64,000 nt of DNA, from the NCBI RefSeq assembly GCF_003286915.1, contig NZ_QMFY01000004.1:62001-126000 (forward strand), read 5' to 3'. Shown here piece after piece: positions 10,556 through 61,690 of the stretch. Made by a program: the position numbers and the translations under genes. Position 1 is the first letter of the stretch. The number at the start of each line of letters is the position of its first letter. Origin of the DNA: Pseudochryseolinea flava (GTDB taxonomy: Bacteria > Bacteroidota > Bacteroidia > Cytophagales > Cyclobacteriaceae). The notes beneath the pieces are model-generated. The model did not search any database. It saw only the letters and a program-made list of their open reading frames with translations, and was not told the DNA's origin.

Positions 10556-10638
10556 GTTCACTGTTCACAGTTCACGGTTGACGGTTCACTGTTAATACGT
10601 TTAAACAGTTCGCAAACCAAACAGTGAACAGTGAACCG
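10556..10638. repeat. Heptamer array TTCACNG with inverted copy
   Basis: Five tandem 7-mers (TTCACTG, TTCACAG, TTCACGG, TTGACGG, TTCACTG) fill 10557-10591. After about 30 bases, two copies of the reverse complement CAGTGAA follow at 10622-10635. The two sides can pair into a hairpin. It lies directly 3' of the terminator of the LacI-family gene. Confidence 0.8.
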
Positions 10639-10684
10639 ACACACCGTAAACTCTCACACCACAAACGTTGTAGGTAAAATGTTA

Positions 10685-10700
10685 CCGCAATCGATTTCGG
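10685..10700. promoter_or_regulatory. LacI-type operator upstream of the GH31 gene
   Basis: CCGCAATCGATTTCGG is palindromic except for one pair and has a central CG. Its 14-base core matches the site upstream of susC at CGCAWWCGWTTKCG. It lies 79 bases before the GH31 start codon. A TAGGTTTA box (10721-10728) resembling the Bacteroidota -7 element follows 20 bases downstream. Confidence 0.55.
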
Positions 10701-10778
10701 ATTTTTAGTGTCATCAGCGGTAGGTTTAATCTTCTTATTTACTTTTAATTAGAAGAACATTAACGCATCAAAAACCGC

Positions 10779-13181
10779 ATGTCTAGAAAAATCAATGCGC
10801 CTCTCAGCAAAAGTTTAGGTGACCTGAAAGAATGGAAGAAGATTCACAGTGGTTTGGAAGGCACCACATCGGCAGGACATTTTCGAGTACTCACCTATGG
10901 CGAAGGAATCATTCGCATCACAATATCGCTCGACACATTCGAAGACTTCTCTTATGCTGTCGTTGCAAAACCAGAAGATGTAAAAGCATCGATCACAGAA
11001 TCGTCAGATGTTATTCAGATTAAGACGAAGAGCGTTGCGTTGCAGATAAGCAAAAGCCCAGTTCGCTTTACACTCCTTACACTAGACGGACGCATCATCA
11101 ACGAAGATGACGCTGCTTTCGGAACGAACTGGAATGGAGAGCAAGTGACAGCGTATAAAAAGCTTCAAGAAGGAGAGCGTTTTATTGGCTTAGGAGAAAA
11201 AACAGGACCGCTCGATCGTAAAGGTCATGGCTATACACATTGGAACACCGACAACTTCGCTTACTCTCCTGGCGCGGATCCACTTTACTGCTCAACACCA
11301 TTTTACATCGGCATTCATAATAAGCTAGCCTACGGAGTATTTTTCGACAACACACATAAAACATTTTTCAATTTCGGTGCTTCCAACAATAGATTTGCAA
11401 GTTTCTCCGCCGACAGTGGTGAAATGGATTACTATTATTTCCACGCCGCTTCTGTTGCCGACATTATCAAGCAATACACGCATGTGACGGGGCGCATGGA
11501 GATGCCACCGTTGTGGAGTATTGGATACCAACAGTGTCGTTATAGTTATTATCCCGATAAAGAAGTATTGACCCTTGCGCGAACATTTAGAGAAAAAGAT
11601 ATTCCCGCAGACACGATTGTATTTGACATCCATTATATGGAGCAGTACAAGATATTTACGTGGAGCAATCGCGACTTCCCCGATCCAAAAGCATTATTAA
11701 CACAATTGCGCGACCTCGGATTTCAAGTAGTTGTGATGTGTGACCCAGGAATAAAAGTAGAACAGGGCTATAAAACGTACGACGACGGCGTTGAGCAAAA
11801 CGTATTCTTGAAATATCCTGATGGAACAAATTATACCGGACAAGTTTGGCCGGGATGGTGTCACTTCCCTGACTTCACCAACCCAACCACACGCCAATGG
11901 TGGCAAGATCAGTTTAAGGAATATGTTGATTTAGGAATTCAAGGTTTTTGGAACGACATGAATGAGATCGCCACTTGGGGACATATGCTTCCTGAGCACG
12001 TCGAGTTTGATTTCGAAGGAAATAAAGCAACGATGCGCCGCGGACGAAATATTTATGGTTTCCAAATGGCGAGAAGTACGTACGAGGGAACAAAAGCATT
12101 ATTGAAAGGAAAGCGTCCATTCAATTTGACGCGTTCTGGCTTCTCTGGTATTCAACGATACGCTGCCGTGTGGACGGGCGATAATGTGGCCTACGATGAA
12201 CACATGCTCTTAGGGGTTCGCCTTGTCAACAGCATGGGCCTAACCGGCATTGCATTCGCAGGCTATGATGTTGGTGGATTTGTAGGCGACGCAAACTCAA
12301 AACTTTTCGCGCGGTGGATTTCTATCGGTACCTTCTCTCCTTTCTTCAGAGGTCACTCGATGATTAACAGTCGTGACTCTGAACCTTGGGCATACGGCGA
12401 AGAAGTAGAACAAATTTCACGCAACTACATTAAATTCAGATACCGTCTTCTTCCCTACATCTACTCGTTATTCTTCGATGCTGTCACCACGGGGATGCCC
12501 GTGCAACGATCATTGGCCATCGACTATCCACATGATCAAAAGATCTACGATGGACAATTTCACAACCAATACCTTTTTGGCCCTTCGATTCTTGTTGCAC
12601 CTGTGGAAAGCAACAAGGAATTTGTAAAGGTGTACCTTCCGGAAGGTGAATGGTATTCGTTGTATTATGGAACAAAACATCAGGGAAACACAGAGCTTAT
12701 CACGGAATGTCCAACGCACAGGCTACCGGTTTTTGTGAAGGCAGGTGCATTGATCCCGATGCAGCCTACAAAACAAAACACACAGGAAGCAACGACCACG
12801 CTTCAATTACATGTGTATGTCGGAGCAAATAACAACTCCTTCACTTACTATGAGGATGATGGTTCAACTTTCCAATATCAACGTGGCGAGTACGCAAAAC
12901 GAGAACTTCGTTACGAAGGCGAGACAAGAAAGTTAACAGTGGGACCTGTCGAAGGACACTACACGACTGGCATCAAGAAGCTGAAAGTAATTTTTCATGG
13001 TCTGCACATGAATCAAATCACCGTGAATGGACAACATCACACGTTGCATCACGAGGTGAATCAATTTTTTGCTCCCCTTGAAAAGTTCGATCCTATTTAT
13101 GATCCAGAACCGGCGCCACAAGAAGATGTACTTGCCATTGAGGTAGATTATACAGCAGAAGCTATCCTGATGAAATGGTAA
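10779..13181 (+). CDS. GH31 alpha-glucosidase
   Basis: The 800-residue product has the GH31 order: an N-terminal beta domain with G-E-R-F-I-G-L-G-E-K, then the barrel with FDIHYM, the nucleophile motif W-N-D-M-N-E (Asp393), the acid/base region L-T-R-S-G-F-S-G-I-Q-R-Y-A with W-T-G-D468-N, the substrate-binding R-G-H-S motif, and C-terminal beta domains. The enzyme releases glucose from the non-reducing ends of alpha-glucosides. No signal peptide is visible, so it is probably cytoplasmic and acts after import by the neighbouring permease. A LacI-type operator precedes it. Alpha-1,4 versus 1,6 preference cannot be told from sequence. Confidence 0.93.
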   Translation: MSRKINAPLSKSLGDLKEWKKIHSGLEGTTSAGHFRVLTYGEGIIRITISLDTFEDFSYAVVAKPEDVKASITESSDVIQIKTKSVALQISKSPVRFTLLTLDGRIINEDDAAFGTNWNGEQVTAYKKLQEGERFIGLGEKTGPLDRKGHGYTHWNTDNFAYSPGADPLYCSTPFYIGIHNKLAYGVFFDNTHKTFFNFGASNNRFASFSADSGEMDYYYFHAASVADIIKQYTHVTGRMEMPPLWSIGYQQCRYSYYPDKEVLTLARTFREKDIPADTIVFDIHYMEQYKIFTWSNRDFPDPKALLTQLRDLGFQVVVMCDPGIKVEQGYKTYDDGVEQNVFLKYPDGTNYTGQVWPGWCHFPDFTNPTTRQWWQDQFKEYVDLGIQGFWNDMNEIATWGHMLPEHVEFDFEGNKATMRRGRNIYGFQMARSTYEGTKALLKGKRPFNLTRSGFSGIQRYAAVWTGDNVAYDEHMLLGVRLVNSMGLTGIAFAGYDVGGFVGDANSKLFARWISIGTFSPFFRGHSMINSRDSEPWAYGEEVEQISRNYIKFRYRLLPYIYSLFFDAVTTGMPVQRSLAIDYPHDQKIYDGQFHNQYLFGPSILVAPVESNKEFVKVYLPEGEWYSLYYGTKHQGNTELITECPTHRLPVFVKAGALIPMQPTKQNTQEATTTLQLHVYVGANNNSFTYYEDDGSTFQYQRGEYAKRELRYEGETRKLTVGPVEGHYTTGIKKLKVIFHGLHMNQITVNGQHHTLHHEVNQFFAPLEKFDPIYDPEPAPQEDVLAIEVDYTAEAILMKW

Positions 13182-13231
13182 TTTGAATTCAATGATTGGC
13201 AATCTCCGTGTTTTTGCAGATTTTAGTAGAC

Positions 13232-13245
13232 AACAATCGATAGCG
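13232..13245. promoter_or_regulatory. Weak LacI-type operator candidate before the permease gene
   Basis: AACAATCGATAGCG matches 11 of 14 positions of the CGCAWWCGWTTKCG core seen upstream of susC and the GH31 gene and keeps the central TCGA. The word AGCGGTAG overlaps it (13242-13249) and also occurs at 10716-10723 upstream of GH31. The gap before the permease is 99 bases, so a separate regulatory site is plausible, but this match could be chance. Confidence 0.3.
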
Positions 13246-13280
13246 GTAGCTGTTGAAGAATCCGATTTAACCATATCCTC

Positions 13281-14624
13281 ATGAGTTCCCCTTCCTTCAA
13301 CCGACCGCGCTTAAGTGTCCTTCAAATTATCAACATGAGCGTTGGGTTCTTCGGAATTCAATTTGGGTTTGCATTGCAAAATGGTTTCGCTTCAAAAATC
13401 CTCACAACCTTTGGCGCCAACGTAGAACACCTCTCCCTTTTTTGGCTGGCGGCTCCATTGACGGGGATGATTATTCAACCCATTATTGGCCACTACAGTG
13501 ATATTACCTGGACGCGACTCGGAAGACGTAGACCGTTTTTTCTCACGGGTGCGATCATTGCCTCGACCGCATTGATCTTCATGCCGAATGCCGATATCCT
13601 GGTGCACGTATTACCGCCACTTTATGTAGGTGCAGGCATTTTGATGATCATGGACGCCTCTTTTAACGTGGCCATGGAGCCATTTCGTGCCCTTGTCGCC
13701 GACTTACTCCCATCAGATCAACGCACCCTTGGCTTCGCAATCCAGACGTGCCTCATTGGTTTAGGCGCTGTCATTGGATCAACGCTTCCGTACATCCTTA
13801 CCAAAGTATTCGGTGTTACAAATGTAGCCGCAACCGCAGGTGTTGTAGCGCCAAATATTGTTACCGCATTTTACATCGGCTCTTTCATTTTCATTGCTGC
13901 TATTGTGTGGACTGTGATTACGACAAAAGAATACCCAGGAGAACATACCACGGACCAGCTAGCGAAGGAAGGTATCGGACAAATCTTTCGCGATTTTGTC
14001 GCAATGCCCAAGACGATGAAACAACTTGGTGTAGTCCAGTTCTTTTCATGGTTTGCATTATTCTCCATGTGGGTATTTACCAATTCAGCCGTCGCCGGTC
14101 ATATTTACAAAATTGCACCTGAAAATATGGTTGACAGCAATCCTACGTACGGAGATGCCAGCGATTGGGTCGGCGTGATCTTCGGCGTATACAATGGTGT
14201 GTCGGCGCTATGTGCACTCTTTCTCCCAGCGATTGCATTTCGTCTTGGCAGAAAACTAACGCACGCCATCTCGTTAACCATCGGTGGTGTTAGTTTGATC
14301 TCCATTTATTTCATTACGAATCCAACACTACTCGTCATACCGATGATTGGCGTTGGGGTTGCTTGGGCGAGTATTTTAGCCATGCCGTATGCCATCCTCG
14401 CCGGCGCTATTCCGCCGCACAAAATGGGAATCTACATGGGGCTGTTCAACTTCTTCATTACCCTTCCGCAAATTATCAATGGTTTTGTCGGTGGACTTAT
14501 TGTCAAGCACATGTACAACGGACAGCCTATACTCAGCATCGTCATGGCGGGTGTATTCTTCATCATTGCAGCAGCTTGTGTCAGGTTTGTCGACGACCGA
14601 GACGATACATTAACAACAGCATGA
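13281..14624 (+). CDS. SLC45/GPH-like major facilitator sugar permease
   Basis: The 447-residue product has about 12 membrane helices. The loop between helices 2 and 3 carries G-H-Y-S-D followed by T-R-L-G-R-R-R-P-F-F, the signature of the SLC45/GPH type of disaccharide:proton symporters, which includes bacterial maltose and plant sucrose carriers. It follows the GH31 gene and overlaps the next gene by ATGA, so it belongs to the locus. Import of maltose or short maltodextrins across the inner membrane is the likely role (context inference). Confidence 0.85.
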   Translation: MSSPSFNRPRLSVLQIINMSVGFFGIQFGFALQNGFASKILTTFGANVEHLSLFWLAAPLTGMIIQPIIGHYSDITWTRLGRRRPFFLTGAIIASTALIFMPNADILVHVLPPLYVGAGILMIMDASFNVAMEPFRALVADLLPSDQRTLGFAIQTCLIGLGAVIGSTLPYILTKVFGVTNVAATAGVVAPNIVTAFYIGSFIFIAAIVWTVITTKEYPGEHTTDQLAKEGIGQIFRDFVAMPKTMKQLGVVQFFSWFALFSMWVFTNSAVAGHIYKIAPENMVDSNPTYGDASDWVGVIFGVYNGVSALCALFLPAIAFRLGRKLTHAISLTIGGVSLISIYFITNPTLLVIPMIGVGVAWASILAMPYAILAGAIPPHKMGIYMGLFNFFITLPQIINGFVGGLIVKHMYNGQPILSIVMAGVFFIIAAACVRFVDDRDDTLTTA

Positions 14625-15814
14625 GAACGATTTGTCTTGTAGCTTTTATGGTCGTGGCTTTCACGGTTAACGGTCAAGACCGGTACAAGACATTTTCCTC
14701 GATTCTCAAGAATCTCAGTAATGCTGGTACAGCAGACCAACAATGGTCCACGCTAATTGCAGAAAACACCATTCCGCTCGTGGCAGACGACTCCGTTGCC
14801 TTCCTTTACCGCGGTGAGGCGACCAGCGTGCGTTGGATGGGTGACTTTAACGAATGGGGCTACGACAAAACATTTAAAAACACCGGTACGAATATCCCAG
14901 GAACAAATATCTGGATACTCAAAACCTCCTTCCCTGCTGATGCGCGACTCGATTACAAAATCGTATTGAACGATACGGAATGGATTCTTGATCCCAACAA
15001 CCCAAATCAACAGTGGTCTGGCGTTGGCGGTGGCAGTCCCAACTCCGAATTACGAATGGGTCAATGGAAAGTCGACCCCATAACGGAACCCCTAGACGCC
15101 ATCTTCCATGGCCGTGTGATTCAAGATGTCCTGATTAGAAGTAATACACTCAACTACCAAGTATCTTATTCGATTTACCTTCCTGCGAACTTCAAGAATG
15201 TAACCAACGAAGTTTACCCCGTCTTATATGTGACTGACGGGAACGAGTACATGCACGAGAAGATGGGAAACATGATCACAATTCTTGACAACCTCATTCA
15301 CCTGAAGAAGATCAAGCCGGTAATTGTCGTATTTATCGACCACCGCGAACCCGTAAACCGTTCTAACAATCGCCGTATGAAAGAACTCGCGATGAACGAA
15401 CAATATCTAAACTTCATCGTGAAGGAGCTAATCCCCAAGGTCGAAAAGAACTATCCGATCTCCACCCATCCGGAAGAGCGTGGCATCCTGGGCACATCTA
15501 TGGGAGGTCTTACGGCAGCCTACTTTGCTTTCTCCAAGCCAGATATATTCGGCCTGGCGGGAATTCAATCGCCGGCATTCTGGTACAAGCCAGAGATCTA
15601 CCTGCATTGCGGTAATCCGGCTCGCCCACCCGTCAAAACGTTCTTAACTACCGGCACGATTAAAGACACTGAAGAAGGCGCTAAAAAGATGGAATCTATC
15701 CTGGATAAAAACACATGTACCTTTCAATACCGGGAAGTACACCAGGGACACTCCTGGGGCAACTGGAGAGACCTTATTGACGACGTCTTGATTTACTTTT
15801 TCCCCGCCAACTGA
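14621..15814 (+). CDS. Enterochelin-esterase-like hydrolase with CBM48-like N-terminus
   Basis: The 397-residue product starts at the ATG that overlaps the permease stop (ATGA). A signal peptide ends near V-N-G-Q. Residues about 55-150 form an early-set/CBM48-like domain (V-R-W-M-G-D-F-N-E-W). The rest is a PF00756-type alpha/beta hydrolase with the nucleophile elbow G-T-S293-M-G-G and a late H-Q-G-H-S-W motif for the catalytic His. The family removes acyl or ester groups. In this operon it may deacylate imported sugars or act on the envelope; the substrate is unknown. Periplasmic location follows from the signal. Confidence 0.8.
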   Translation: MRTICLVAFMVVAFTVNGQDRYKTFSSILKNLSNAGTADQQWSTLIAENTIPLVADDSVAFLYRGEATSVRWMGDFNEWGYDKTFKNTGTNIPGTNIWILKTSFPADARLDYKIVLNDTEWILDPNNPNQQWSGVGGGSPNSELRMGQWKVDPITEPLDAIFHGRVIQDVLIRSNTLNYQVSYSIYLPANFKNVTNEVYPVLYVTDGNEYMHEKMGNMITILDNLIHLKKIKPVIVVFIDHREPVNRSNNRRMKELAMNEQYLNFIVKELIPKVEKNYPISTHPEERGILGTSMGGLTAAYFAFSKPDIFGLAGIQSPAFWYKPEIYLHCGNPARPPVKTFLTTGTIKDTEEGAKKMESILDKNTCTFQYREVHQGHSWGNWRDLIDDVLIYFFPAN

Positions 15815-15868
15815 TTAAATTTGCGGCACCGTAATTGTTTAAAACCCTTCGCCTTAATATTTACACTT

Positions 15869-17011: not shown

Positions 17012-17027
17012 GTTTCCGATACTGTAT

Positions 17028-17066
17028 AATCCTGCCCATCATATAATATGATCGGCAGGATTTTTT
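17028..17066 (+). terminator. Strong terminator closing the sugar operon
   Basis: AATCCTGCC (17028-17036) pairs with GGCAGGATT, and the inner part ATCATAT/ATATGAT also pairs, giving a long nearly continuous hairpin followed by T-rich sequence. It lies 16 bases after the lipoprotein stop. Confidence 0.85.
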
Positions 17067-17168
17067 ATTTCTCGATCACGATAGCAAGACTTCCTGCTCC
17101 TGGAGAGAAACATTTTTCACCATCCCATCAAACCATTTTCTACGTACATAGGTTATGTTTAAAACAAC

Positions 17169-17837: not shown

Positions 17838-17932
17838 AAAATTTTATGGCCGATCGCAACCTCAGGTGGAGAGTCCCGTTAGTATTCTCAAGAGTAGAGT
17901 AATTCTTCTCATAGGTTTAGGTTTAGGTAAAC

Positions 17933-17961
17933 AAAAAAGCCCTGGGACGCAGGGCTTTTTT
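17933..17961. terminator. Bidirectional terminator
   Basis: AAAAAAGCCCTG and CAGGGCTTTTTT form a perfect 12-bp stem with a 5-base loop, with T runs on both strands. It separates msrA from the convergent sensor gene. Confidence 0.9.
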
Positions 17962-41604: not shown

Positions 41605-41870
41605 TGCACGAGTCACCGAGGGAATTTCACCCTTCGGTTCTCACAGACCCGTATCCCGACTGGTCGGGACAGGTCCCGAGTGGTCGGACAGGCTGTGAAA
41701 GTCTCCCTTCATATGCTTACGCCGAAGCTGCTTCAGCATAATAGGCGCTACGGCTCTCCTGTTTAATCACAAAGGTAAATAATCCTTAACGGAGCATCCT
41801 GAGAACAGAGACAGTAAATATGTCTCGACGTTAGCGAAAGGGATTATTCATGGAAGCTTTTGTTGTATGC
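41605..41870 (-). mobile_element. Intron-like repeat copy 3, domain V split by two palindromic inserts
   Basis: The copy runs on the minus strand from AACAAAAGCTTCCATGAATA (near 41868) to a GGTGACTCG end near 41610. Domain V begins GAGCCGTA (41749-41756), continues TATGAAGGGAGACTTTCACA (41694-41713) and ends TACGGGTC (41646-41653). A 35-base palindromic piece (41714-41748) and a 40-base double palindrome (41654-41693) interrupt it. Joining the parts restores a 34-base domain V if a duplicated TA is removed. Confidence 0.6.
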
Positions 41871-42348: not shown

Positions 42349-42379
42349 GTCGTCACTGTGTCAATGGCATTGCATACAG

Positions 42380-42790
42380 TCGAGTCACCCATGGGAGTTT
42401 CACCCTTAGGTTTTCACGGAACCGTGCTTGAGAGTCTCCCCTCACACGGCTCTTCCTGTTTAATCACAAAAGTAAATAATCCATAACGGATCTACCAACC
42501 CCATGGACCTACCAACTTCCAGTGGGCAAATAAGTCGGGATGCACAGCATGCTATGTTGTAACGATAAGTGATGCGGTGGTGTGAGAGAATTACAACAGT
42601 AACGGATCACGCCTCAAACGCCACGTAACGCTCCATATCGCACAGGCGAATTACGCGTCCACCCTTGACAGAGCGTTCATTTTTTCGAATACAGCATTTG
42701 TAGAAAAATGAGTTTTAATATGCATCCTGAGAATAGAAACACTAAATTCGTCTCAACGTTAGCAAAAGGGATTATTCATGGAACACATTG
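42380..42790 (-). mobile_element. Intron-like repeat copy 4, with intact domain V
   Basis: This is the longest copy, about 410 bases, without an open reading frame. On the minus strand it starts near AACAATGTGTTCCATGAATA (42790), contains GGATTATTTACTTTTGTGAT before the domain V hairpin (42452 to 42419), and ends with a domain VI-like stem around AAGGGTGAAACTCCC and GGTGACTCGAC. No reverse transcriptase is encoded, so any mobility would need help in trans. Confidence 0.6.
42419..42452 (-). ncRNA. Group II intron domain V
   Basis: The 34-base element folds exactly like a group II domain V: an 8-bp lower helix (GAGCCGTG with CACGGTTC, including the usual G-T pair), a 2-base AG bulge, a 6-bp upper helix and a GAGA (GNRA) tetraloop. 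The AGC catalytic triad is present in the first strand. Length, bulge and loop together make chance unlikely. Confidence 0.75.
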
Positions 42791-43843: not shown

Positions 43844-44661
43844 CAGCCGTGTGTTTTAAAATGTAGACTATGTCGATCAGGTACACCTCGGCTCTTTTGC
43901 TTGCTTTGGTGTCGCGAGGGAATGTGCGGCAAGCAAATGTGCCAATGTTCGAAGCACCAAATCTGTCCTGCGGCATTGTGCCTAACGACCGAATATATGC
44001 AATTACCTGATATTTCCTTATAGCAACATTCGCGTTTGTAAGTTCGAAATTCGCCTAAAAATCACGATTCCTATTTTTAAGGTGCACCGCGCGTCACGTA
44101 GAAAATTCTTTACTCCACGCGGTACAAATTGCCGCCACTGCGTGACAACTGGTGACACGCCTCCTTTACTTTCTGTGTTGCAAAACGCACCGTCTTCAAC
44201 TTTCTGTCTTTCCTTTTAGAGTCCGCTTCACCCCTGGCCCCTTAAGGGGAAACTATTTCAATTAATGTTCATGTGTGATGAGCTATTAGGGATAAAGAGC
44301 GCAAAGAAGTAAACATCTAGTACGCTCAGAAACGTCATCCTGGCTTCATCCTCCAGAGAAGCTATAGACATCCTTTCATTTTCTCCATATGTTCTCCATA
44401 CGCGTCCAGTAGTTCTATCATTGTTCTATAGATGTTGGTTCATCACGCTATAGACGATGTATCATAAATTCCGGTGTTTGGTTCATTCTTCTCTCATCGC
44501 GCGTTCATTATTCTCTTATTAATTCGCAGTTTGTCCAGATGTCCTTTCATTGCGCTCTCATAATTCTGCATATCTCTCCTAGGAAGATGCGGTGTTTGTT
44601 TCATAGAATGGGTCGTTTATGAAGCAAATAGGGAAGCTACACGGGAAGATCACGGTAGAGA

Positions 44662-44739
44662 GCTGCGAGCTACGAGCTTCGAGTTGCGAGAAATGCATTA
44701 GACTCAGAAAAGCTGCGAGCTACTAGCTACGAGTTGCGC
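44662..44739. repeat. Heptamer array GCTRCGA, two blocks
   Basis: Block one is GCTGCGA, GCTACGA, GCTTCGA, GTTGCGA (44662-44689); block two is GCTGCGA, GCTACTA, GCTACGA, GTTGCGC (44712-44739). Both blocks are followed by GAAATGC/CGAAATGC, so the whole block was duplicated. A further GCTGCGA starts at 44763. Confidence 0.8.
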
Positions 44740-44961
44740 GAAATGCGTTATACGTCAGGCGGGCTGCGAGCTCCTTAGCTTACGTACCTCAAGGTGAAGG
44801 ATTTTTTTTACCGCAAAGTCGCGAAAGCGCAGAGATGCGCTGAGCCTATGATCAAAAAACATGGAACGATGTATTCAACACCAACACGCCAACACGTTCC
44901 TAGAAAGCTGCAGTGAATACGGCTACGCGTGGCGTTCGTTAGACGAAACTTGATCTGATAA

Positions 44962-45012
44962 CCAGAAACCGGCAAACCGGAAACCGGAAACTAGCAACCC
45001 GGAAACCGGGAA
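44962..45012. repeat. Heptamer array AAACCGG
   Basis: Units AAACCGG, AAACCGG, AAACCGG, AAACTAG, AACCCGG and AAACCGG, with an extra base in three places. It lies about 80 bases before the miaB promoter box. Confidence 0.7.
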
Positions 45013-45088
45013 CACACCTGAACTCGGCCGCCAAAAGAAAAACCCGCAAATCCACTGACAAGATGTCACAATAAAAGACTAAAAAGTG

Positions 45089-50318: not shown

Positions 50319-50347
50319 AAAGGCTGTTCGAAAGGACGGCCTTTTTA
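50319..50347 (+). terminator. Terminator of the secG operon
   Basis: AAAGGCTG (50319-50326) pairs with CGGCCTTT (50337-50344, one G-T pair), followed by T. A heptamer array starts 25 bases later. Confidence 0.8.
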
Positions 50348-50371
50348 GTTATTGGTTATCGGTAATTACGA

Positions 50372-50448
50372 GTTGCCAGTTACCAGTTGCCAGTTACCAG
50401 TTGCCAGTTACCAGTTGCCAGTTGCCAGTAGCCGGTGGCCAGTTGTCA
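50372..50448. repeat. Heptamer array GTTRCCA, 11 units
   Basis: Eleven perfectly phased 7-mers: GTTGCCA and GTTACCA mostly alternate, with GTAGCCG, GTGGCCA and GTTGTCA at the end. A second array of the same unit lies at 51239-51296, on the other side of the next gene. Confidence 0.9.
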
Positions 50449-50466
50449 GAAGCTAATAGTCATTTC

Positions 50467-51180
50467 TCACGCTTGCGATATGTGTTTAACAAAAAGTCTT
50501 TTTGCTACGGGCATGAGGGTTTGGGAGAACGGAAATTTCATTTTGGAGATAATCAGATATGCTGCCGGGTTCGGTAGATCCTGGAATTTGCGAATGAGGT
50601 CGAGTTTGATTCTTTCGTAGGTATTTTTCAGATTCTTCTCGACACAGTCAACCAGTTCAGTATTGAGGCTTCGAAGCTGCTCCTGACTACCTTCAAAAAT
50701 GCTCACCTGATAGCGGAATACGCGTGTTTCCTTTTCAGGCGGCTGTGTTACAAACAAATAGCCTTCGTTGGCATACAGCGGCGTGACACCAATAGGTGAA
50801 ATTTCACACTGTGACTGCACGTATTCATAAATGACGGAGCCTTCCTGTAACGAATCTTTGATCTGCGGAATGGCAAATTCGATAATCGATTCCAGCTCGC
50901 TCATCACCGCATCGTCTTCTATCATTTGGCGATAACTCAATTCCAATTTCTTAAATTCTTCAAGCGAAATCTCTTTGGGGAACGATTCTTTCAAAAGCGT
51001 TTTATTCTCCTTCACCGCCACCAAGTTACGATAGTGAAATACAAGATCGCCCATAAACGGATAGAGCTCCACCCTATCAAAAGAGCTTCTCACTGTTTTA
51101 AGATATGCCAGCAGCAGATACTTTTTGTATTCGAAATCAATCATCCCCTGAGTCAGCCAGTCTTTCGATAGTTTCTCCAT
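50467..51180 (-). CDS. Conserved protein of unknown function between two like arrays
   Basis: The 237-residue product has no signal or membrane helix. It is mixed alpha/beta with E-L-Y-P-F-M-G-D-L-V-F-H-Y-R-N-L and G-Y-L-F-V-T-Q-P-P-E-K-E-T-R-V-F-R-Y. No family was recognised, though the composition is that of a normal chromosomal gene. It is the only gene in the core block on the minus strand and is framed by two arrays of the same heptamer. Confidence 0.75.
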   Translation of the reverse strand: MEKLSKDWLTQGMIDFEYKKYLLLAYLKTVRSSFDRVELYPFMGDLVFHYRNLVAVKENKTLLKESFPKEISLEEFKKLELSYRQMIEDDAVMSELESIIEFAIPQIKDSLQEGSVIYEYVQSQCEISPIGVTPLYANEGYLFVTQPPEKETRVFRYQVSIFEGSQEQLRSLNTELVDCVEKNLKNTYERIKLDLIRKFQDLPNPAAYLIISKMKFPFSQTLMPVAKRLFVKHISQA

Positions 51181-51238: not shown

Positions 51239-51296
51239 GTTGCCAGTTACCAGTAGCCAGTTACCAGTTAGCGAGTTGCCAGTTAGCCAGTTGTCA
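51239..51296. repeat. Heptamer array GTTRCCA, second copy
   Basis: Units GTTGCCA, GTTACCA, GTAGCCA, GTTACCA, GTTAGCGA, GTTGCCA, GTTAGCCA and GTTGTCA. Two units have an extra base. It has the same orientation and the same last unit as the array at 50372-50448. The remaining gap to groES (51297-51490) shows no other recognisable element. Confidence 0.85.
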
Positions 51297-51490
51297 GAAA
51301 CAAACCCGGCAACCGGAGACGACCTAACCTGACAGCATGGCTTATTCAGTGACAGACACCAAATAAAAGCAGTCAGTTTTAAGGTGGATTCTTGAAAAAT
51401 TGTCCGTTATTCGCGTCTCATTTCGCGATGGCATAATTGCTGATAAGCGAAGGCAGGTTTAAAACGTAACACTTAAAATCCATCATTTAT

Positions 51491-53435: not shown

Positions 53436-53477
53436 AAGCTACAGGCTTCTAGCCACAAGCTACAAGCCTTTAGATGC
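53436..53477. repeat. Degenerate heptamer array after groEL
   Basis: Six phased 7-mers: AAGCTAC, AGGCTTC, TAGCCAC, AAGCTAC, AAGCCTT and TAGATGC. It lies between the groEL stop and its terminator, so it is in the groEL transcript. Confidence 0.6.
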
Positions 53478-53515: not shown

Positions 53516-53526
53516 TTTTAATAGCC

Positions 53527-53623
53527 GCAAGTGGCAAGCCGCAAGTTGCAAGCTTCAAGTTGCTAAAGCTCCCACGGATGAAAAAAGGGCTTGAAACTTG
53601 AGGCTTGAAGCTTGAAGCTTCAC
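53527..53623. repeat. Heptamer array GCAAGYT with inverted partner GCTTGAA
   Basis: Left side: GCAAGTG, GCAAGCC, GCAAGTT, GCAAGCT, TCAAGTT (53527-53561). Right side: GCTTGAA, ACTTGAG, GCTTGAA, GCTTGAA, GCTTCAC (53589-53623), largely the reverse complement. The two sides are separated by 27 bases and can pair. It lies just upstream of the TerB-like gene. Confidence 0.8.
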
Positions 53624-53656: not shown

Positions 53657-54007
53657 ATGGTTCTCCACTCCTCCTTCCCCGATTTCGTGCTTTTCCTTTA
53701 TGTGCACTTGTCGAATGCCGATAGCAGCTATGATCCAAAAGAATTGGCGGCGATTAAAGACAAAATGAGAGTCCTTTTCCCTGAATCAACAGACTTCGAG
53801 AAAAAGCTCTACCAAACGATTCGTGAATACAACGCACTCGACAAATCGAATCTGGATGAAGTACTGCAACGCTCCGCAGAACATTTTAAAAAAGAAAAAC
53901 CATCGAAAGACATCTACGATGCGTTTCAAGATATCATTGCCGCAGATGGTAAGATCGAACCCACAGAAGCAAAAGCATTGGATACGCTTCGGCAAATCAT
54001 TGGCTAA
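53657..54007 (+). CDS. TerB-like protein
   Basis: The 116-residue product is all-helical with two acidic, metal-binding-like loops, N-A-D-S-S-Y-D-P-K-E-L at the start and A-A-D-G-K-I-E-P-T-E at the end, as in TerB/tellurite-resistance-like domains. Such stand-alone domains are common; a role in tellurite resistance should not be assumed. It lies between two heptamer arrays, and the second begins directly after its stop codon. Confidence 0.8.
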   Translation: MVLHSSFPDFVLFLYVHLSNADSSYDPKELAAIKDKMRVLFPESTDFEKKLYQTIREYNALDKSNLDEVLQRSAEHFKKEKPSKDIYDAFQDIIAADGKIEPTEAKALDTLRQIIG

Positions 54008-54084
54008 AAAGCAGAAAGCTAAAAGCAGAAAGCAGAAAGTTTAAAGTAGAAAGTTTAAAGTAGAAGGGTTGAAGCAGAAAGCTT
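54008..54084. repeat. Heptamer array AAAGYAG, 11 units
   Basis: Eleven perfectly phased 7-mers start at the base after the TerB-like stop: AAAGCAG, AAAGCTA, AAAGCAG, AAAGCAG, AAAGTTT, AAAGTAG, AAAGTTT, AAAGTAG, AAGGGTT, GAAGCAG and AAAGCTT. Confidence 0.9.
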
Positions 54085-56011: not shown

Positions 56012-56039
56012 AATTACTTCTTCAATTTCATGTTAAACA

Positions 56040-59000
56040 TCACAGCGAGAGATCAACACCGAAAGTCCACGTGCGTGGCGTTGGGCCGTTGCCATCGATA
56101 ATTTCTGGATCCCAGAATTCCCACTCAGGCGCATAGAATCCTACGTTGCGCACACTCGCAAATACTTTCATGCGTTGAATACGCACCTTATCCAGAACAG
56201 CTTTTGGAATGGTGTATCCTACGGAGATGTTATCAAGGCGAATGATCGACTTCTTCCGATAAACGTTGAACGCTGCACCACCACTGTTTGAGTTTAGTCT
56301 GGCGTAGTTGTTGGTAGGATTTTCTGGTGTCCAGTAAGGAACAACGTAGGAGTTATTACGATCTAGCAGAAGTCCTGATGAATAGTCATTCTTCGCCTGA
56401 TTGTAGGTATTGATATGTCCCCATAGTGAGTATAGCATGAAGGATACATCAAAGTTTTTGAAGATCGTGAAGTCATTGCGGAGCGACCATCTTACACGTG
56501 GCTTGTAGTAGCCTAAGAATTCTTTATCATCATCGCTAAACGCTTTGTCGCCGTTCTTATCAAGCAATTTAAAATCGCCAGGCTTTTGACCATACTCCGC
56601 AGCCTGATCTGCTTCATTCGTCTGCCACACACCCAACACCTTGTAATTCCATACCGCGTCAATGGCGTGACCAATAAACCAACCGTTGGCTTTGTCGTCG
56701 CCTTCTTTTTGACCGATTACATTACCCTCAGCATCGAGTACGTTGACCATGTTTCCATAAAGATGTAAAATCTTGTTACGATTCATCGACAGGTTGAGCG
56801 TGGTTCGCCATTCGAAGTTTTCGCGCACCATATTTTTCGATGTCAGTGAGATCTCAAGTCCTTTGTTTTCAACTTCGCCCAGATTATCCCACACGTTGCT
56901 GAAGCCCAGGATATCGGGAAGACTTCTGCGGATCAGCAAGTTTGTTGTATTCGACTTATATGCATCGATACTACCGCTAACCAATCCTTTTAAGATCGAG
57001 AAATCGAGTCCGACGTTAAGTGCTTTAGTTTCTTCCCACTTCAATTTATTGTTGCTCATTCTATTCACAAACAATTGAGATGTGGTGTAAGCGTTTCCGT
57101 TGGTTGCAGAAGCATAAAGATATTTACCACTGGTCAGGTCAGACAACGCATCATAGCGACCGATATCACGATTACCATTTGCTCCCCAAGTGACGCGGAG
57201 TTTACCATTATCTAACCAGCTCGCACTTGTCAAGAAGTTTTCATCGGAGAATAACCACGCAGCACCGAATGATGAAAAAGTTGCGCGTGGATTATTCGTT
57301 CCGAATGCAGAATAGCCATCGCGTCGAATGGTATAAGTAAGCATATACTTCTCGCGGAATGAGTAAAACATGCGAGCCATGAGTGCATCGCCTGTTGAAT
57401 AATCATCTGAAGTACTAATCACTGGTGTAGAACCTGCTCCTAAATTGTGGTATCCGAGATTATCATTCGGATCGAATTGGATATTGCTGTTGTTGCTTGA
57501 CCAGAATTGATACTTTTCCGCGTTGGCCAAGAAGGTCGCGTCGAAACGGTGATCACCAAAAGTCTTTTCCCATTTGATGATATTATCGAGTTGCCAATAA
57601 TACAGTTGATGATTGTATCGGCTTGCATTTCCGCCACGAGAAATCCAGTCGGGATGCTTTGCAGATATCGATTGGTAATCGCGATGCCATTCTAAACGTG
57701 GTGTAAAATTCGCTTGATACGAAAAACCAAAAGGTAATGTGACTTTCGCATAGAGGGTTGGCGTGATCGTATAAAAATCGCGTTTCTTATCGTTGTAATG
57801 ATTAGACAAGAAAGGATTTCTGGAATTTCCACCAGGATCATCTTGAGGACTGTAGCGAAGTTCACCGTTGTTGTCATAGAATGATCCATAAGGAGAATCG
57901 CGAACAATCTGTCCCCAATCAGCAGGTACTTGACTTTCGTCGCGTGCAGCAAACTGTAGGTTCGTACCGAGGCTCAGATAATTTGTGACCTCCACATCTA
58001 GGTTAAAACGATTTCTAAACGTTGAAAACTTATCGCCGGCGATTATACCTTCGTTGTCGGTATAGCCCAATGACCAATAGTAGCTTACGCGCTCTCCTTT
58101 TCCGGAAATGCTCACCGTGTGATCTTGACGTTTACCGCGTTGAAAAACTTCATTCTCCCAGTTGATTGTCTTTCCCGCTTTGAAGTTTTCAATTTCGATT
58201 GCTGTTAGTCCTAGACGGCCGAGCCAAACATCAACGGGATCGCCGGTTGCGCCGTCGTACGCAAGCCAATCCGCTATCGTAATGTTAGGTGGGAGATTTC
58301 TCGGGTCTGCAAATTTCTCAGCCGGGTCCGTCGCTTTGATCGCGCGTGCAACATCGGCGCGATAGTTCAAGTATGCTTCTCCTTGATAGACGTGTTCTTG
58401 AACGCCTTCGCCTACAAAACCGAATGTAGAATTAACATTGATCACCGGCTTTGTTGTTGTTCCTTTCTTGGTAGTAATAAGAATAACACCGCTGGCGGCT
58501 TTCGCGCCAAATACAGCCGCAGAGCTCGCATCTTTCAATACGTCTACTTTATCGATGTCATTTGGATTGATGTCGGCTAAGTCGCCATAGTAGATAACAC
58601 CGTCGACAACAATGAGTGGAGATGTACCTGCGTTGATCGAATTCTGCCCGCGAACTTCAAGGTTTGCATTTCCTTTTGCAGAAACACCATATCCTACTAC
58701 GTTCACACCGGGAACATTTCCGCGGAGGATGTCAGTAACACTATTAGGATTTTCGTTCTCGAGTTGCTTAGCGTCAACTTGCACAACAGATCCTGTCAGA
58801 TCACGCTTGCGTTGCGTACCATATCCAACAACGACGACGTCGCTGAGGAGTTTAACGTTAGGAGCAAGTGCTACACTAATGTCAGATTGATCTTTCACGA
58901 GCACTTCCTGTGTGTCGAATCCGATGAAACTAAAAACGAGGACTGCGCCTTCCGACACGACGATGGAGTAGTTTCCATCGACGTCAGTAACCGTTCCTGT

Positions 59001-59168
59001 TGATGTGCCCTTTTCGACGATGTTGACACCGGGCATCGCCGTGCCGTCTTCGGAGGAAGTGATCTTTCCTTTTACCGTTACTTGTGCGAAAGCCGACGTG
59101 GACAATAGCAACAAGAACACGGGAAAGAACACTCGCCATTTGCGTTGGTAGTTTTTCCTCATAGCCAT
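56040..59168 (-). CDS. SusC/RagA-family TonB-dependent transporter (second locus)
   Basis: The 1042-residue product has a signal peptide (cleavage near A-F-A-Q), a carboxypeptidase-like domain (V-K-G-K-I-T-S-S-E-D-G-T), the plug signature D-V-V-V-V-G-Y-G-T-Q-R-K-R-D-L-T-G and a barrel ending W-T-F-G-V-D-L-S-L. It imports a large ligand together with the SusD-like protein. A strong LacI-type palindrome lies 35 bases upstream of its start, nearly the same as those at the amylase locus. Confidence 0.94.
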   Translation of the reverse strand: MAMRKNYQRKWRVFFPVFLLLLSTSAFAQVTVKGKITSSEDGTAMPGVNIVEKGTSTGTVTDVDGNYSIVVSEGAVLVFSFIGFDTQEVLVKDQSDISVALAPNVKLLSDVVVVGYGTQRKRDLTGSVVQVDAKQLENENPNSVTDILRGNVPGVNVVGYGVSAKGNANLEVRGQNSINAGTSPLIVVDGVIYYGDLADINPNDIDKVDVLKDASSAAVFGAKAASGVILITTKKGTTTKPVINVNSTFGFVGEGVQEHVYQGEAYLNYRADVARAIKATDPAEKFADPRNLPPNITIADWLAYDGATGDPVDVWLGRLGLTAIEIENFKAGKTINWENEVFQRGKRQDHTVSISGKGERVSYYWSLGYTDNEGIIAGDKFSTFRNRFNLDVEVTNYLSLGTNLQFAARDESQVPADWGQIVRDSPYGSFYDNNGELRYSPQDDPGGNSRNPFLSNHYNDKKRDFYTITPTLYAKVTLPFGFSYQANFTPRLEWHRDYQSISAKHPDWISRGGNASRYNHQLYYWQLDNIIKWEKTFGDHRFDATFLANAEKYQFWSSNNSNIQFDPNDNLGYHNLGAGSTPVISTSDDYSTGDALMARMFYSFREKYMLTYTIRRDGYSAFGTNNPRATFSSFGAAWLFSDENFLTSASWLDNGKLRVTWGANGNRDIGRYDALSDLTSGKYLYASATNGNAYTTSQLFVNRMSNNKLKWEETKALNVGLDFSILKGLVSGSIDAYKSNTTNLLIRRSLPDILGFSNVWDNLGEVENKGLEISLTSKNMVRENFEWRTTLNLSMNRNKILHLYGNMVNVLDAEGNVIGQKEGDDKANGWFIGHAIDAVWNYKVLGVWQTNEADQAAEYGQKPGDFKLLDKNGDKAFSDDDKEFLGYYKPRVRWSLRNDFTIFKNFDVSFMLYSLWGHINTYNQAKNDYSSGLLLDRNNSYVVPYWTPENPTNNYARLNSNSGGAAFNVYRKKSIIRLDNISVGYTIPKAVLDKVRIQRMKVFASVRNVGFYAPEWEFWDPEIIDGNGPTPRTWTFGVDLSL

Positions 59169-59202
59169 TAAATTGGGTTAAGATTGATTGGTTTATTTGT
59201 TC

Positions 59203-59220
59203 TGCGCAATCGATTGTGCA
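59203..59220. promoter_or_regulatory. LacI-type operator upstream of the second susC
   Basis: TGCGCAATCGATTGTGCA is an 18-bp palindrome with a single mismatched pair and central CG. Its core CGCAATCGATTG shares 10 of 12 bases with the site upstream of the GH31 gene. It lies 35 bases before the susC start, close enough to block transcription. CATTTTTG, a -7-like box, lies just upstream on the minus strand. Confidence 0.6.
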
Positions 59221-59721
59221 GACAAACAAAAATGCAGGTCTTTCAAAAAAATGAGGCACTGAGCCCTACGCTTCTCATACTTCAGAATTTTTACAAGCAC
59301 TCGCCAACGCCACTTCACTACACCGTAAATCCCCTACACCATGTTCAGAATGTATTGATATCCAACAAGAAGAACGCTTTCAAGAATTTCTCCAACACCC
59401 GTCGATGAACGCTCAACTTTTTTCCATTTTATTACGCGGCAAAATTTTCGGGAACGGTCCCAAGAAAAAACGCTACTAGAATTTCTGTTAGATTTTTTCG
59501 ACGACCGCTATGAAGTGAACGATATCTGTTGGCGTGCGCCGTTATTGGGAACGAGACCGGAAAAACGCAAAAGGACATTTGTCTGTCTCGAAATGATGTT
59601 GATGAGTCTAAAATTTAGCGGCATCCCGGGATGAACAAATACCAACACAAAACTGTGTTAATCTTACGCCGACATTTGTACGTGGCTTTAATTGCCGATA
59701 TTGTTTCCCTAATTAACCTAA
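59221..59721. other. Intergenic region between divergent susC and the TPR-HTH gene
   Basis: About 500 bases without a recognisable gene. Small open frames exist on both strands but show no signal, domain or codon pattern. The promoters of both divergent genes must lie here; only the operator at its left border was recognised. Confidence 0.4.
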
Positions 59722-61425
59722 GTGAGCCCTACTTGTCGACTTGTGTTAGTCCTACGCAAAAGGATATTCCTGTCTGGAATCCTCTTGGCTTGCGTGGTGA
59801 CAAGCGTGTGCGGTCAACAGAACAAAGGCGATAGCTTAAAGACAGAACTCTCCATTGCTAGCGAAGGCCATAAGATTGGAATCCTTCTTCAACTTTCACA
59901 ATACTTCATAAATGTCAACGTCGATACCGCCATGGCATATGGTGAACGTGCCATGCACCTCGCCGAAGAATCAAAAATCCCGATCGACCTGGCACGTGCG
60001 AATAGCCAGTTGGCGAGGATAAAATTGATTACCGCTGCCTACGACGATGCCCTTGATCACCTGTTGAAAGCGGAAAACATTTTAATGGAACAAGACCCTG
60101 TAGATCGAAACGAACTTCTCCGCGTGTATTCAAACCTCGGCTCGATCTATGAACGACAGGACGAATTAAAAAAATCACTCCCCTACTTCGAAAGAGCCAT
60201 CGCACTATTGGATCAACTGGATCGCGAGGCAAATGCAAAAACACCCTCGCCATTACACGCACCGCTATTGAATAACATGGCGAACACGCTGATAAAAATG
60301 GGCGATACAGCAAAAGCTATACTTTGTCATAAGAAAGGGCTGCAGTACGCAATGGCCGCGCACGACTACTTCCATGCCGGAAACCTTCTTAACAATCTCG
60401 GAAAACTTTATCTGGAACAAAACAAAATAGCAGAAGCATATCTGCATTTACATCAGGGGCGAGTTTTGAGAAAACAAAATCAAGACGATCGTGGGCTTGC
60501 GTCATCTTGCAGAAACCTGGCTTTGTATTTCATGAAACAACAGAATGCGGACTCGGCCAAGCACTACATTGCACAATCGATCAAACTATACAATCAGATT
60601 GGTGAAATGACTGAACCGTTGAGCGGCGTGTATATGATCTTGTCGGAAGTATACCTTACTGAGAAAAAATATGACAGCGCTCTCATTTCCTACAAGCTTC
60701 ACGTGGTATATAAAGACAGCATTTACAGCGGTGATAAATTCAAAGACATCGCACGTGTTGAAGCAAAGTACGAGATGATCAAGAAAGCGCAGCAAGAAAA
60801 GGCAATACAAGAATCTAAAGAAATAAAGACCATATTATTTATCTGCGCGCTTGTAGCTGGACTGATTATCCTCCTACTTTTTTTCGCGGTACAACGGTTC
60901 AGGTCCAAAAATCAAAAATTGCAGTACGAGCAGCTCAAACTTCGTGAAGAAAAGCTATTGACGGAGCAACAACACCTGCAATTGGAACTCGACTATAAGC
61001 GAAAAGATATTGCCGCACAGATGCTCTTCTTGCTTAAGAAAGATGAGCTTATTCACAAAATCTCCGAGCGAATCGGATCCGTGAAAGACGAAGTTCCATC
61101 AGAGGTTCAGCCAAAATTGCAACGCATCACGAAAGAGCTTCATGGTATTTCCAAACGCAACGACGGATCATGGCAAGAATTTGAGCTACGATTTAAAGAA
61201 GTTCACCAAGATTTTTATGCTCACCTCGAAGCACAATTCCCAGAGCTGACACCTAAAGAACGGAGGTTATGCGCGCTGCTTAAATTGAATATGACCACAA
61301 AAGAAATTTCATCGATTACACATCAATCCACGCGAAGTCTAGAAGTTGCGAGAACACGCCTTCGTAAGAAACTAAACCTTACTAACTCAGAAATTGGCCT
61401 CGTGGACTTCTTGTCCAAATACTAA
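59722..61425 (+). CDS. TPR-transmembrane-HTH regulator
   Basis: The 567-residue product starts near GTG 59722 with a signal or anchor (R-K-R-I-F-L-S-G-I-L-L-A), then about six TPR repeats (50-350, for example Y-S-N-L-G-S-I-Y-E-R-Q-D-E-L), one membrane helix (about 371-392), a coiled coil, and a C-terminal LuxR/GerE-like helix-turn-helix (L-T-P-K-E-R-R-L-C-A-L-L-K-L-N-M-T-T-K-E-I-S). This layout places sensing in the periplasm and DNA binding in the cytoplasm, a Bacteroidota type. It diverges from the second susC and may regulate it (inference). Confidence 0.85.
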   Translation: MSPTCRLVLVLRKRIFLSGILLACVVTSVCGQQNKGDSLKTELSIASEGHKIGILLQLSQYFINVNVDTAMAYGERAMHLAEESKIPIDLARANSQLARIKLITAAYDDALDHLLKAENILMEQDPVDRNELLRVYSNLGSIYERQDELKKSLPYFERAIALLDQLDREANAKTPSPLHAPLLNNMANTLIKMGDTAKAILCHKKGLQYAMAAHDYFHAGNLLNNLGKLYLEQNKIAEAYLHLHQGRVLRKQNQDDRGLASSCRNLALYFMKQQNADSAKHYIAQSIKLYNQIGEMTEPLSGVYMILSEVYLTEKKYDSALISYKLHVVYKDSIYSGDKFKDIARVEAKYEMIKKAQQEKAIQESKEIKTILFICALVAGLIILLLFFAVQRFRSKNQKLQYEQLKLREEKLLTEQQHLQLELDYKRKDIAAQMLFLLKKDELIHKISERIGSVKDEVPSEVQPKLQRITKELHGISKRNDGSWQEFELRFKEVHQDFYAHLEAQFPELTPKERRLCALLKLNMTTKEISSITHQSTRSLEVARTRLRKKLNLTNSEIGLVDFLSKY

Positions 61426-61428
61426 GGA

Positions 61429-61623
61429 ATTGGGTATTGGGTATTAGGTATTAGGTATTAGGTATTAGGTATTAGGTATTAGGTATTGGGTATTGGGTAT
61501 TAGGTATTAGGTATTGGGTATTAGGTATTAGGTATTGGGTATTAGGTATTAGGTATTAGGTATTAGGTATTGGGTAATTCGGGGTTGGGTATTGGGTCCT
61601 TGTCCTATGACCTAATACCCAAG
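61429..61623. repeat. Heptamer array ATTRGGT, 21 units, with inverted end
   Basis: Twenty-one perfectly phased 7-mers, ATTAGGT or ATTGGGT, fill 61429-61575 without interruption. After a short degenerate part and another ATTGGGT (61591-61597), the reverse complement ACCTAAT plus ACCCAAG follows at 61610-61623. It begins 3 bases after the stop of the TPR-HTH gene. This is the longest array in the window. Confidence 0.95.
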
Positions 61624-61634
61624 ACTCTTTCTTT

Positions 61635-61690
61635 CTTCTTACTTCTTGCTTCTTGCTTCTTACTTCTTACTTCTTGCTTCTTACTTGATA
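61635..61690. repeat. Heptamer array CTTCTTR
   Basis: Seven phased 7-mers, CTTCTTA or CTTCTTG, fill 61635-61683, followed by CTTGATA. It lies 11 bases after the ATTRGGT array but has an unrelated unit. Confidence 0.85.

Follow-up and report, generated by a model that had tools for sequence, protein, structure and literature searches.

Tandem repeats with 7-bp units have been described from several bacterial groups, and Mrazek 2007 is credited with finding that, in most genomes, heptanucleotides outnumber every other class of long simple repeats (PMC4679880; PMC4692102 cites a 2007 study to the same effect). Slippage together with a polymerase footprint has been proposed to account for this excess (PMC4679880; PMC4692102), although the explanations in the portion of the literature seen are speculative. 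The GGGAATC and GGGGA(C/T)T heptamers of Xanthomonas and Nostoc were examined as G-quadruplex (G4)-forming sequences, and the discussion section of that paper describes them as preferring the coding strand when downstream of genes and the non-coding strand when upstream (PMC4692102). Here we describe intergenic heptamer arrays in Pseudochryseolinea flava (Cytophagales), beginning with a stretch of 64,000 nucleotides (contig C43, positions 62001-126000; hereafter the window) of its 6.54-Mb genome, which is assembled in 48 contigs. The arrays keep one period under many units, are anchored at stop codons, are enriched between convergent genes in this genome, are polar in strand composition and reuse units at unlinked loci; they are absent from the sampled parts of two congeners, and a third congener carries a different heptamer in an orthologous spacer.

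Period, placement and strand polarity

The P. flava sample comprised 1,657,531 bases taken in stretches (25% of the genome) and held 80 arrays in all. The window, picked by the initial annotation, and 139,531 bases picked for pattern hits (on C33, C9, C3, C24 and C1:150-170 kb) are included in every statistic except a stricter count over 1.02 Mb, from which the window and the repeat-picked stretches were left out; contigs C22, C45 and C11 of this stricter set were known beforehand from pattern hits, and its stretches C45:360-380 kb and C11:1-20 kb do hold such hits. The species is represented by one strain, and comparison was made with congeners. A second set consisted of the best 80 of 593 groEL relatives in public records (1.40 Mb; mostly Bacteroidota, including a few records titled outside the phylum: L068, L078, L096 and L117). 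Genes in the P. flava sample and in the 80 groEL loci were called with our own Markov open reading frame (ORF) caller, not taken from published annotation.

The single period of 7 bp that the initial annotation had proposed from the window stands out sharply in the wider sample, with 62 intergenic arrays at period 7 compared with 1 at 5, 2 at 6, 12 at 8 and none at 9 (a further 1 at 12 and 4 at 14), while three period-7 arrays lay in coding DNA. Local shuffling of all sampled DNA left one array at each of periods 2, 3, 5, 7 and 8. The stricter threshold yielded 12 intergenic arrays at period 7 (plus 2 coding) and 4 at period 8, with none at 5, 6 or 9-11, and five shuffles gave none at periods 7 and 8. 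When a 5-base core repeated three times was sought in intergenic DNA, 683 triples were found at period 7, 85 at 8, 15 at 6 and none at 5 and 9. Intergenic DNA of the 80 groEL loci held 41 arrays at period 7, 20 at 8, 2 at 6, 2 at 9 and none at 5 and 10-13; arrays of period 7, 8, 14 or 16 occurred in 32 of these loci.

Enrichment at gene 3' ends, which the initial annotation had suspected, was also found. The test covered the 59 arrays that have a neighbour on each side and at least one flanking 3' end. Of these, 24 begin within 5 bp of the nearest stop codon or overlap it, compared with 6.2 by chance (mean of 1000 random placements within the same gaps, maximum 12). Because arrays may themselves supply stop codons, the test was repeated with genes of at least 100 amino acids and good coding score, and 17 of the 41 arrays at or after a stop began within 15 bp of it (null 6.3, maximum 13 of 2000). 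Array density in P. flava was 1.09 per kb in convergent gaps, 0.22 in codirectional and 0.13 in divergent ones (29, 31 and 9 arrays, excluding 11 of the 80 at stretch edges; convergent versus the rest, rough P = 9 × 10−11 with bases treated as independent). Convergent junctions hold 23 of the 31 stop-adjacent arrays, whose median length is 41 bases (range 25-152). Stop anchoring recurs in the 80 groEL loci (12 of 54 arrays begin at most 5 bp beyond a stop, compared with a null of 4.4 and a maximum of 10), but the convergent excess is absent there (0.215 per kb convergent, 0.393 codirectional and 0.117 divergent); arrays in the groES-groEL gap may inflate the codirectional class. A further set of 30 loci from other genera, many of them overlapping (five places from each of six array-rich genomes), includes stop-adjacent sense placement in some, for example L242, L256 and L263. 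Because an array in L240 lies between divergent genes and one in L238 is antisense to a 3' end, the placement rule is not demonstrated for each of these six genomes.

Arrays beside stop codons are strongly polar. On the coding strand, G exceeds C in 28 of the 31 stop-adjacent arrays, C exceeds G in 1 and the two are equal in 2 (28 versus 1, P = 1.1 × 10−7), with an overall composition of A 0.358, C 0.089, G 0.267 and T 0.286, whereas array-free DNA past stops has no G excess (C 0.202, G 0.197). Beside stops in the 80 groEL loci, G exceeds C in 15 arrays, C exceeds G in 3 and 2 are equal. Within 60 bp of 3' ends, the outward strand has more G than C by 32 to 2 in P. flava and 19 to 4 in the 80 loci. 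Among P. flava arrays with a neighbour on each side, the plus strand is G-rich by 27 to 6 in the left half of gaps and C-rich by 23 to 8 in the right half (P = 1 × 10−5). Arrays within 60 bp of gene starts likewise have their G-rich strand facing outward (8 to 1 in P. flava, 16 to 2 in the other loci). There, the coding strand of array-free DNA 0-15 bp upstream of starts is itself poor in G (C exceeds G in 479 of 676 skewed segments), so the 5' polarity may be a translation-start effect; 3' ends, unlike start-upstream DNA, have no comparable background skew. A sense-arm-first order is visible in some loci: of 18 arms with a downstream inverted partner, 13 have more G than C, 4 more C than G and 1 equal amounts.

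Among the groEL loci, period-7 or period-8 arrays lie immediately 5' of groEL in L093, L100, L107, L074, L063 and L080 (near 9960-10000); these upstream arrays, in Chryseobacterium, Pedobacter, Mucilaginibacter and Pinibacter, have units TCTAACA/TCTAATA, ATCGTAA, ATCTCAA and AATTTTCA and end a few bases before the start codon. L080 (Pinibacter aurantiacus) carries many 8-base arrays between 2290 and 16018 (AATTTGAA, AATTTTCA and AATAACTG), some near an inverted copy, and octamer arrays outnumber heptamer arrays there. The contig of L078 is titled as a Streptomyces griseus metagenome-assembled genome, and its groEL is 74% identical to that of the window, so the record title looks wrong.

Unit reuse, distribution among relatives and arrays of the window

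The class is not confined to one sequence, as the initial annotation had recognized, and many units share the one period. Its description of those units as unrelated fails genome-wide, where exactly the same heptamers recur at unlinked loci: 39 arrays lying more than 2 kb apart form 31 same-unit pairs, compared with 1.07 expected (maximum 5 in 200 draws of intergenic heptamers), so that independent generation from random seeds is insufficient. The commonest exact units in canonical form, among the 62 period-7 arrays, are AAGAAGT (6), AAAGCTG (5), AACGATT (5; GTTAATC read on the opposite strand) and AGCTCGC (4). By family, the 31 stop-adjacent arrays comprise AAAGY (10), AAGTAAG-like (6), the period-8 GTGTTNNN (4), GGTATTR (3), GTTAATC (3), GGTTATC-like (2) and other (3) units. 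Flank similarity between unlinked arrays was detected for 45 pairs. The GAGYTRC set at 44.2-44.9 kb is part of a longer dispersed repeat, with flank matches of 181-253 bp; the other matches are short (21-73 bp among those listed) and either look array-like or involve a cluster on C9. Within units, variant bases show some concentration at the two most variable positions (135 of 239 in 26 arrays; null 117.8, s.d. 3.6, maximum 129 of 2000), and the linkers found after AAAGC include AG, TT, GT, GG, TC, TA, TG and GC.

Two candidate descriptions of the units were rejected. A wobble or R/Y design, suspected from GAGYTRC, GGTATTR and CAGTTRC, was dropped on 89 transitions versus 150 transversions among the variants. 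Inverted pairs were considered as the defining structure, and inverted partners do exceed the reverse and complement controls, yet direct partners are equally common, so the arrays are not best called palindromes.

The arrays are young, because no period-7 intergenic array was found in 400 kb of congener G004 or 380 kb of congener G002, and three consecutive AAAGYNN units matched 229 times in P. flava (5 times with the control, the pattern read backwards) compared with 1-11 times in six congeners. Nor was any such array found in 200 kb each of one member of the family and one of the order. Elsewhere in the family (245 genomes; control in brackets), the same search gave 80 matches (5) in G103, 62 (13) in G177, 61 (7) in G112, 48 (7) in G070, 39 (4) in G023 and 29 (3) in G239. 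GTTAAYN matched 112 times in P. flava, 7 times in G005, 6 times in G001 and not at all in the other four congeners, and was matched in 42 of the 245 family genomes, so that both patterns recur in other genera. Across 198 genomes of the phylum, P. flava has the highest AAAGYNN count, and 85 have at least one match. The backward control is not a clean zero, because a reversed heptamer pattern is a heptamer pattern too and picks up other repeats; high control counts arise in this way in, among others, G014 and G039 (GTTAAYN search) and G373 and G423 (phylum-wide AAAGYNN search).

Orthologous spacers were compared at single gene ends. At a convergent pair near C11:562.7 kb, arrays begin 3 and 4 bp past the two stops and flank a GGCCTTACGGCC hairpin (by eye). 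The upstream protein aligned to its last residue in all six congeners; in G001, G002, G004, G005 and G006 the end of the partner gene and a hairpin (by eye) are present with no array between (the hairpin of G002 having its T run on the opposite strand), and 361 bases of G003 hold no array, hairpin or partner-gene end. Past the gene ending at C45:235720, compared in five congeners (G001 matched partially, at residues 1-167, and its spacer was left out), P. flava has AAGTAAG-like units and G005 has GTTAATC-type units at the same place (period-7 score 17.6), and the spacers of G002, G003, G004 and G006 gave no period-7 score. The gap after groEL measures 98 bp, with a hairpin, in G002 versus 228 bp in the window.

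Within the window, Tandem Repeats Finder (TRF) reported ten arrays or clusters with a period of 7 or a multiple of it at 10556-61686 (Table 1), in agreement with the nine or more of the initial annotation. The strictness then ascribed to the period is slightly overstated, since 44960-45013 and 51242-51292 mix 7- and 8-base steps (TRF periods 7, 15 and 22); nor do all arrays of the window lie at gene 3' ends, as those at 44660-45013 (in or beside a dispersed repeat, away from stops) and 51239-51297 (between divergent genes) show. The first array lies 3' of a terminator-like hairpin (by eye) and 64 bp past the stop of a gene for a LacI-family-like regulator, an assignment below curated cut-offs, and the array at 50342 is separated by 48 bp from the preceding stop of secG and by 13 bp from that of the convergent gene 50467-51180.

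Table 1. Heptamer arrays and associated inverted copies, in window positions.
Feature	Position	Strand	Basis
GTTCACN array, 5.4 units	10556-10593	+	TRF, distance, sequence
Possible hairpin arm AACAGTGAACAGTGAACC, inverted relative to the 10556 array	10619-10638	-	
GAGYTRC heptamer clusters within a longer dispersed repeat, away from gene 3' ends	44660-44780	+	TRF (44660-44690, within a cluster at 44661-44780)
AACCRGN array with both 7- and 8-base steps, 100 bp 5' of miaB	44960-45013	+	TRF
CAGTTRC array, 11 units by TRF, GTTATN-like units at left edge	50342-50453	+	TRF (50371-50449)
CAGTTRC array, 7/8 steps, between divergent genes	51239-51297	+	TRF (51242-51291)
Degenerate AAGCTAC units, from groEL stop to terminator-like hairpin	53436-53469	+	By eye; no TRF report
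AAGYNGC array, 3' of groEL terminator-like hairpin	53523-53563	+	TRF, as period 14 only
GCTTGAA array, inverted relative to 53523-53563	53588-53620	-	TRF (53589-53620)
AAAGYNN array, starting in the stop codon of 116-amino-acid gene 53657-54007, convergent junction	54007-54079	+	TRF (54006-54081)
GGTATTR array at a convergent junction, 21.7 units, its start inside the stop codon of the gene ending at 61425	61425-61576	+	TRF
Short inverted copy ACCTAATACCCAA	61610-61622	-	
CTTCTTR array, reading YAAGAAG outward from the convergent gene with stop at 61735	61629-61686	-	TRF

The dispersed repeat that carries the GAGYTRC heptamers spans several hundred bases and occurs at window positions 44200-44900, at C11:650-1360 and at C22:309100, some copies also having AACACNNN octamers; the left flanks of the window 44660 array and of an array at C11:914 are 97.6% identical over 253 bp. 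Elsewhere in the window, a 20-base hairpin-like unit, TCCCGACTGGTCGGGACAGG, is present in two tandem copies at 41654-41692. An Rfam scan of the window at the gathering threshold gave one match and none at an array: a group II intron (RF00029) at 42379-42454 on the minus strand (52.3 bits, gathering 40), which may be a remnant, because the two reverse-transcriptase matches of the genome lie elsewhere (C45 and C14).

Possible origins of the arrays

We tentatively favour, with confidence a little short of even, an origin as lineage-specific arrays grown by slippage in dispensable 3' spacers, with a step of 7 and then 8, and seeded from one another. The arrays lie in the spacer past a stop codon, often ahead of the transcription terminator and mostly at convergent junctions, and would grow by slipped-strand copying in replication or repair, with 7 as a favoured step in keeping with the polymerase footprint credited to Mrazek 2007. 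New arrays would be seeded when short pieces are copied between loci by template switching or ectopic conversion, a route that would account for units recurring without common flanks, and would survive only where neither coding sequence nor promoter is harmed. Shared units without long shared flanks point to the spread of short pieces, perfect long arrays (for example, AAGAAGT repeated 13.9 times) to recent expansion by slippage, and restriction to spacers to purifying selection. For the polarity we can offer a guess, that transcription exposes a C-poor non-template strand. Several points weigh against slippage with mutual seeding: plain slippage from random seeds would not lead one to expect the recurrence of identical heptamers, linker positions that vary more than the core, or the 28-to-1 polarity beside stops; this polarity is the weak point, and composition does not explain it, because array-free DNA after stops shows no G excess; and seeding by template switching was not observed.

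A second, unlikely explanation is that the arrays are polar gene-boundary elements: the C-rich inward strand would give incoming antisense RNA a spaced Rho-loading tract on which it is terminated at the stop codon, and the outgoing C-poor RNA would be spared. Rho follows few sequence rules and would permit many units, and the 31 stop-adjacent arrays average 0.78 YC dinucleotides per 7 nt on the antisense strand versus 0.31 on the sense strand, which, with the outward G-rich strand at 3' ends in both sample sets and the convergent enrichment in P. flava, is suggestive of such a role. However, at least 0.75 YC per antisense unit is reached in just 15 of these 31 arrays, a typical rut site is longer than their 41-base median, the convergent enrichment is not repeated in the 80 groEL loci, the corresponding gene ends of congeners do without arrays, and no paper on Rho and rut spacing was found in the open-access literature.

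It is quite unlikely that the arrays are protein-binding sites, in RNA or DNA, or hairpin arms that stabilize or terminate mRNA, as proposed for the short tandemly repeated repetitive (STRR) sequences of cyanobacteria and for the TAACTGA repeats of Beggiatoaceae. The core-plus-linker pattern of the units would suit binding, but the cores are many and their variants show no wobble bias. Hairpins would account for the inverted partners found downstream of 17 of the 80 arrays at a score of at least 12 (1 with complement and 3 with reverse controls), yet direct partners occur just as often (downstream of 17 of the 80 arrays and upstream of 18), swapped flanks gave 2-9 matches at score 10 versus 18 observed, and the arrays alone fold only slightly better than shuffles (29 arrays, mean z = -0.99). 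As for termination, terminator-like sites follow 6 of the 31 stop-adjacent arrays versus 150 of 943 array-free 3' ends (16 of 143 convergent ones), which is no clear excess.

More speculative, and to our minds distinctly improbable, is a general class of boundaries that read direction, with the G-rich strand out and the C-rich strand in at the 3' and often the 5' side of genes, in which, whatever the unit, the 7/8 rhythm would come from a ring-shaped or stepping machine such as Rho that halts transcription entering the gene and lets outgoing transcription pass, and the heptamers of Xanthomonas, Nostoc and Bacteroidota would be one convergently evolved insulator class. If so, period and strand composition would matter and sequence would not.

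Spread by a RAYT (Y1) transposase, in the manner of repetitive extragenic palindromic (REP) sequences and bacterial interspersed mosaic elements (BIMEs), is highly improbable. REP and BIME elements likewise lie at 3' ends in inverted pairs, and they avoid divergent promoters; their unit, however, is longer, palindromic and made by RAYT, with no heptamer period. Strong near-full-length Y1 matches (E < 1 × 10−15) are present in 9 of 10 array-rich genomes, but also in 11 of 20 array-poor ones (Fisher P = 0.10), so that their presence does not discriminate; array-rich G239 has weak partial matches only and may lack a working Y1 gene, unlinked arrays mostly lack long shared flanks, and one RAYT-like gene of P. 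flava adjoins a different, 47-bp repeat. That repeat, which resembles a REP array, has 19.8 copies with a CCCCGAAGGGG palindrome at C22:115205-116140, directly 5' of the Y1 gene at 116169-116513 (L008).

We give next to no credence to the idea, discussed for Xanthomonas and Nostoc, that the arrays are driven by or selected for G-quadruplex formation: the available text on those repeats states a similar placement and strand preference (PMC4692102), but a three-tier G4 pattern occurs in 1 of the 31 stop-adjacent arrays and a two-tier pattern in 5, counts on which G-quadruplexes were rejected as a general cause, and AAAGYNN, AAGTAAG and GTTAATC have no fixed G runs. Equally remote is templating by a reverse transcriptase (telomerase-like or like that of diversity-generating retroelements), one form of the templating enzyme suggested in the initial annotation, which would give different units an equal step, since 6 of the 10 array-rich genomes have no RVT_1 match at E = 0.001 and 13 of the 20 array-poor genomes do have matches; an enzyme with no relation to RVT_1 would escape this argument.

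Comparison with described repeat systems

The initial annotation knew of no described equivalent in Cytophagales, but Flexibacter litoralis DSM 6794, which NCBI lists under Bernardetia litoralis in this order, is reported to carry 14 sets of TAACTGA heptamers (PMC4679880). The TAACTGA repeats of Beggiatoaceae, Cyanobacteria and some Bacteroidetes resemble the P. flava repeats as intergenic heptamer arrays, and the intergenic regions of Gramella and Aequorivita are described there as also holding other heptamer repeats that are absent from close relatives, a further likeness (PMC4679880). In the main genome of that study, as far as the available sections go, a single unit lies mostly right upstream of start codons (PMC4679880), whereas P. 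flava has many units, often past stops. No TAACTGA doublet was found in the 1.66-Mb sample, and single units occur in 4 of the 80 arrays.

Cyanobacterial STRR sequences are usually 7-bp, hairpin-capable repeats, with one case near a 3' end, in the material available from PMC2670836; P. flava shares with them degenerate 7-bp units scattered over its intergenic DNA. The STRR sequences come from a different phylum (filamentous cyanobacteria), and that material gives no strand rule or stop anchoring (PMC2670836). The head-to-tail 7-base units of P. flava, occurring beyond chance, also qualify as heptanucleotide long simple sequence repeats, for which the accounts of the 2007 study in the accessible parts of its citing papers contain no analysis of placement, polarity or unit reuse.

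The closest likeness in anatomy is to the Xanthomonas and Nostoc repeats, which, in the parts of the paper at hand, share the period of 7 and heterogeneous units with constant and variable positions, are intergenic (89-93% in Xanthomonas), have the upstream ORF (at a mean distance of 28 nt) nearer to them than the downstream ORF, and form convergent inverted pairs (70 and 75 cases), with few repeats between divergent genes (PMC4692102). The G-rich coding strand downstream of ORFs is found here as well (28 of 31 arrays in P. flava, 15 versus 3 in the 80 loci); the shares given for Xanthomonas (Xcc) aligned ORFs (30% same strand, 35% opposite and 16% convergent) pool upstream and downstream positions (PMC4692102). 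Much of the anatomy is therefore already known for one G-tract unit. The differences, as judged from the same text, are that P. flava has many unit families, nearly all without a G4 pattern (a G-tract quadruplex-capable unit is present in 1 of 31 arrays by the three-tier pattern), an excess between convergent genes and a start at the stop codon, and that most repeats are flanked by the same gene pair in the two Xanthomonas species (PMC4692102), whereas here most congeners have no array at the orthologous ends that were sampled. No description of this anatomy combined with many units, mostly non-G4, and anchoring at the stop codon was found in the open-access literature.

The many units under one period lead us to set aside sequence-specific accounts, such as a G-quadruplex or a single binding protein, as a general cause. 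Three measurable regularities remain, namely a step of 7 (then 8), a start at the stop codon and an outward strand rich in G. Each of them recurs in the 80 other loci, and they make the question of why the step is 7 testable in culturable relatives. We read the P. flava arrays as a lineage-specific, many-unit, mostly non-quadruplex version of a repeat type known from other bacteria.

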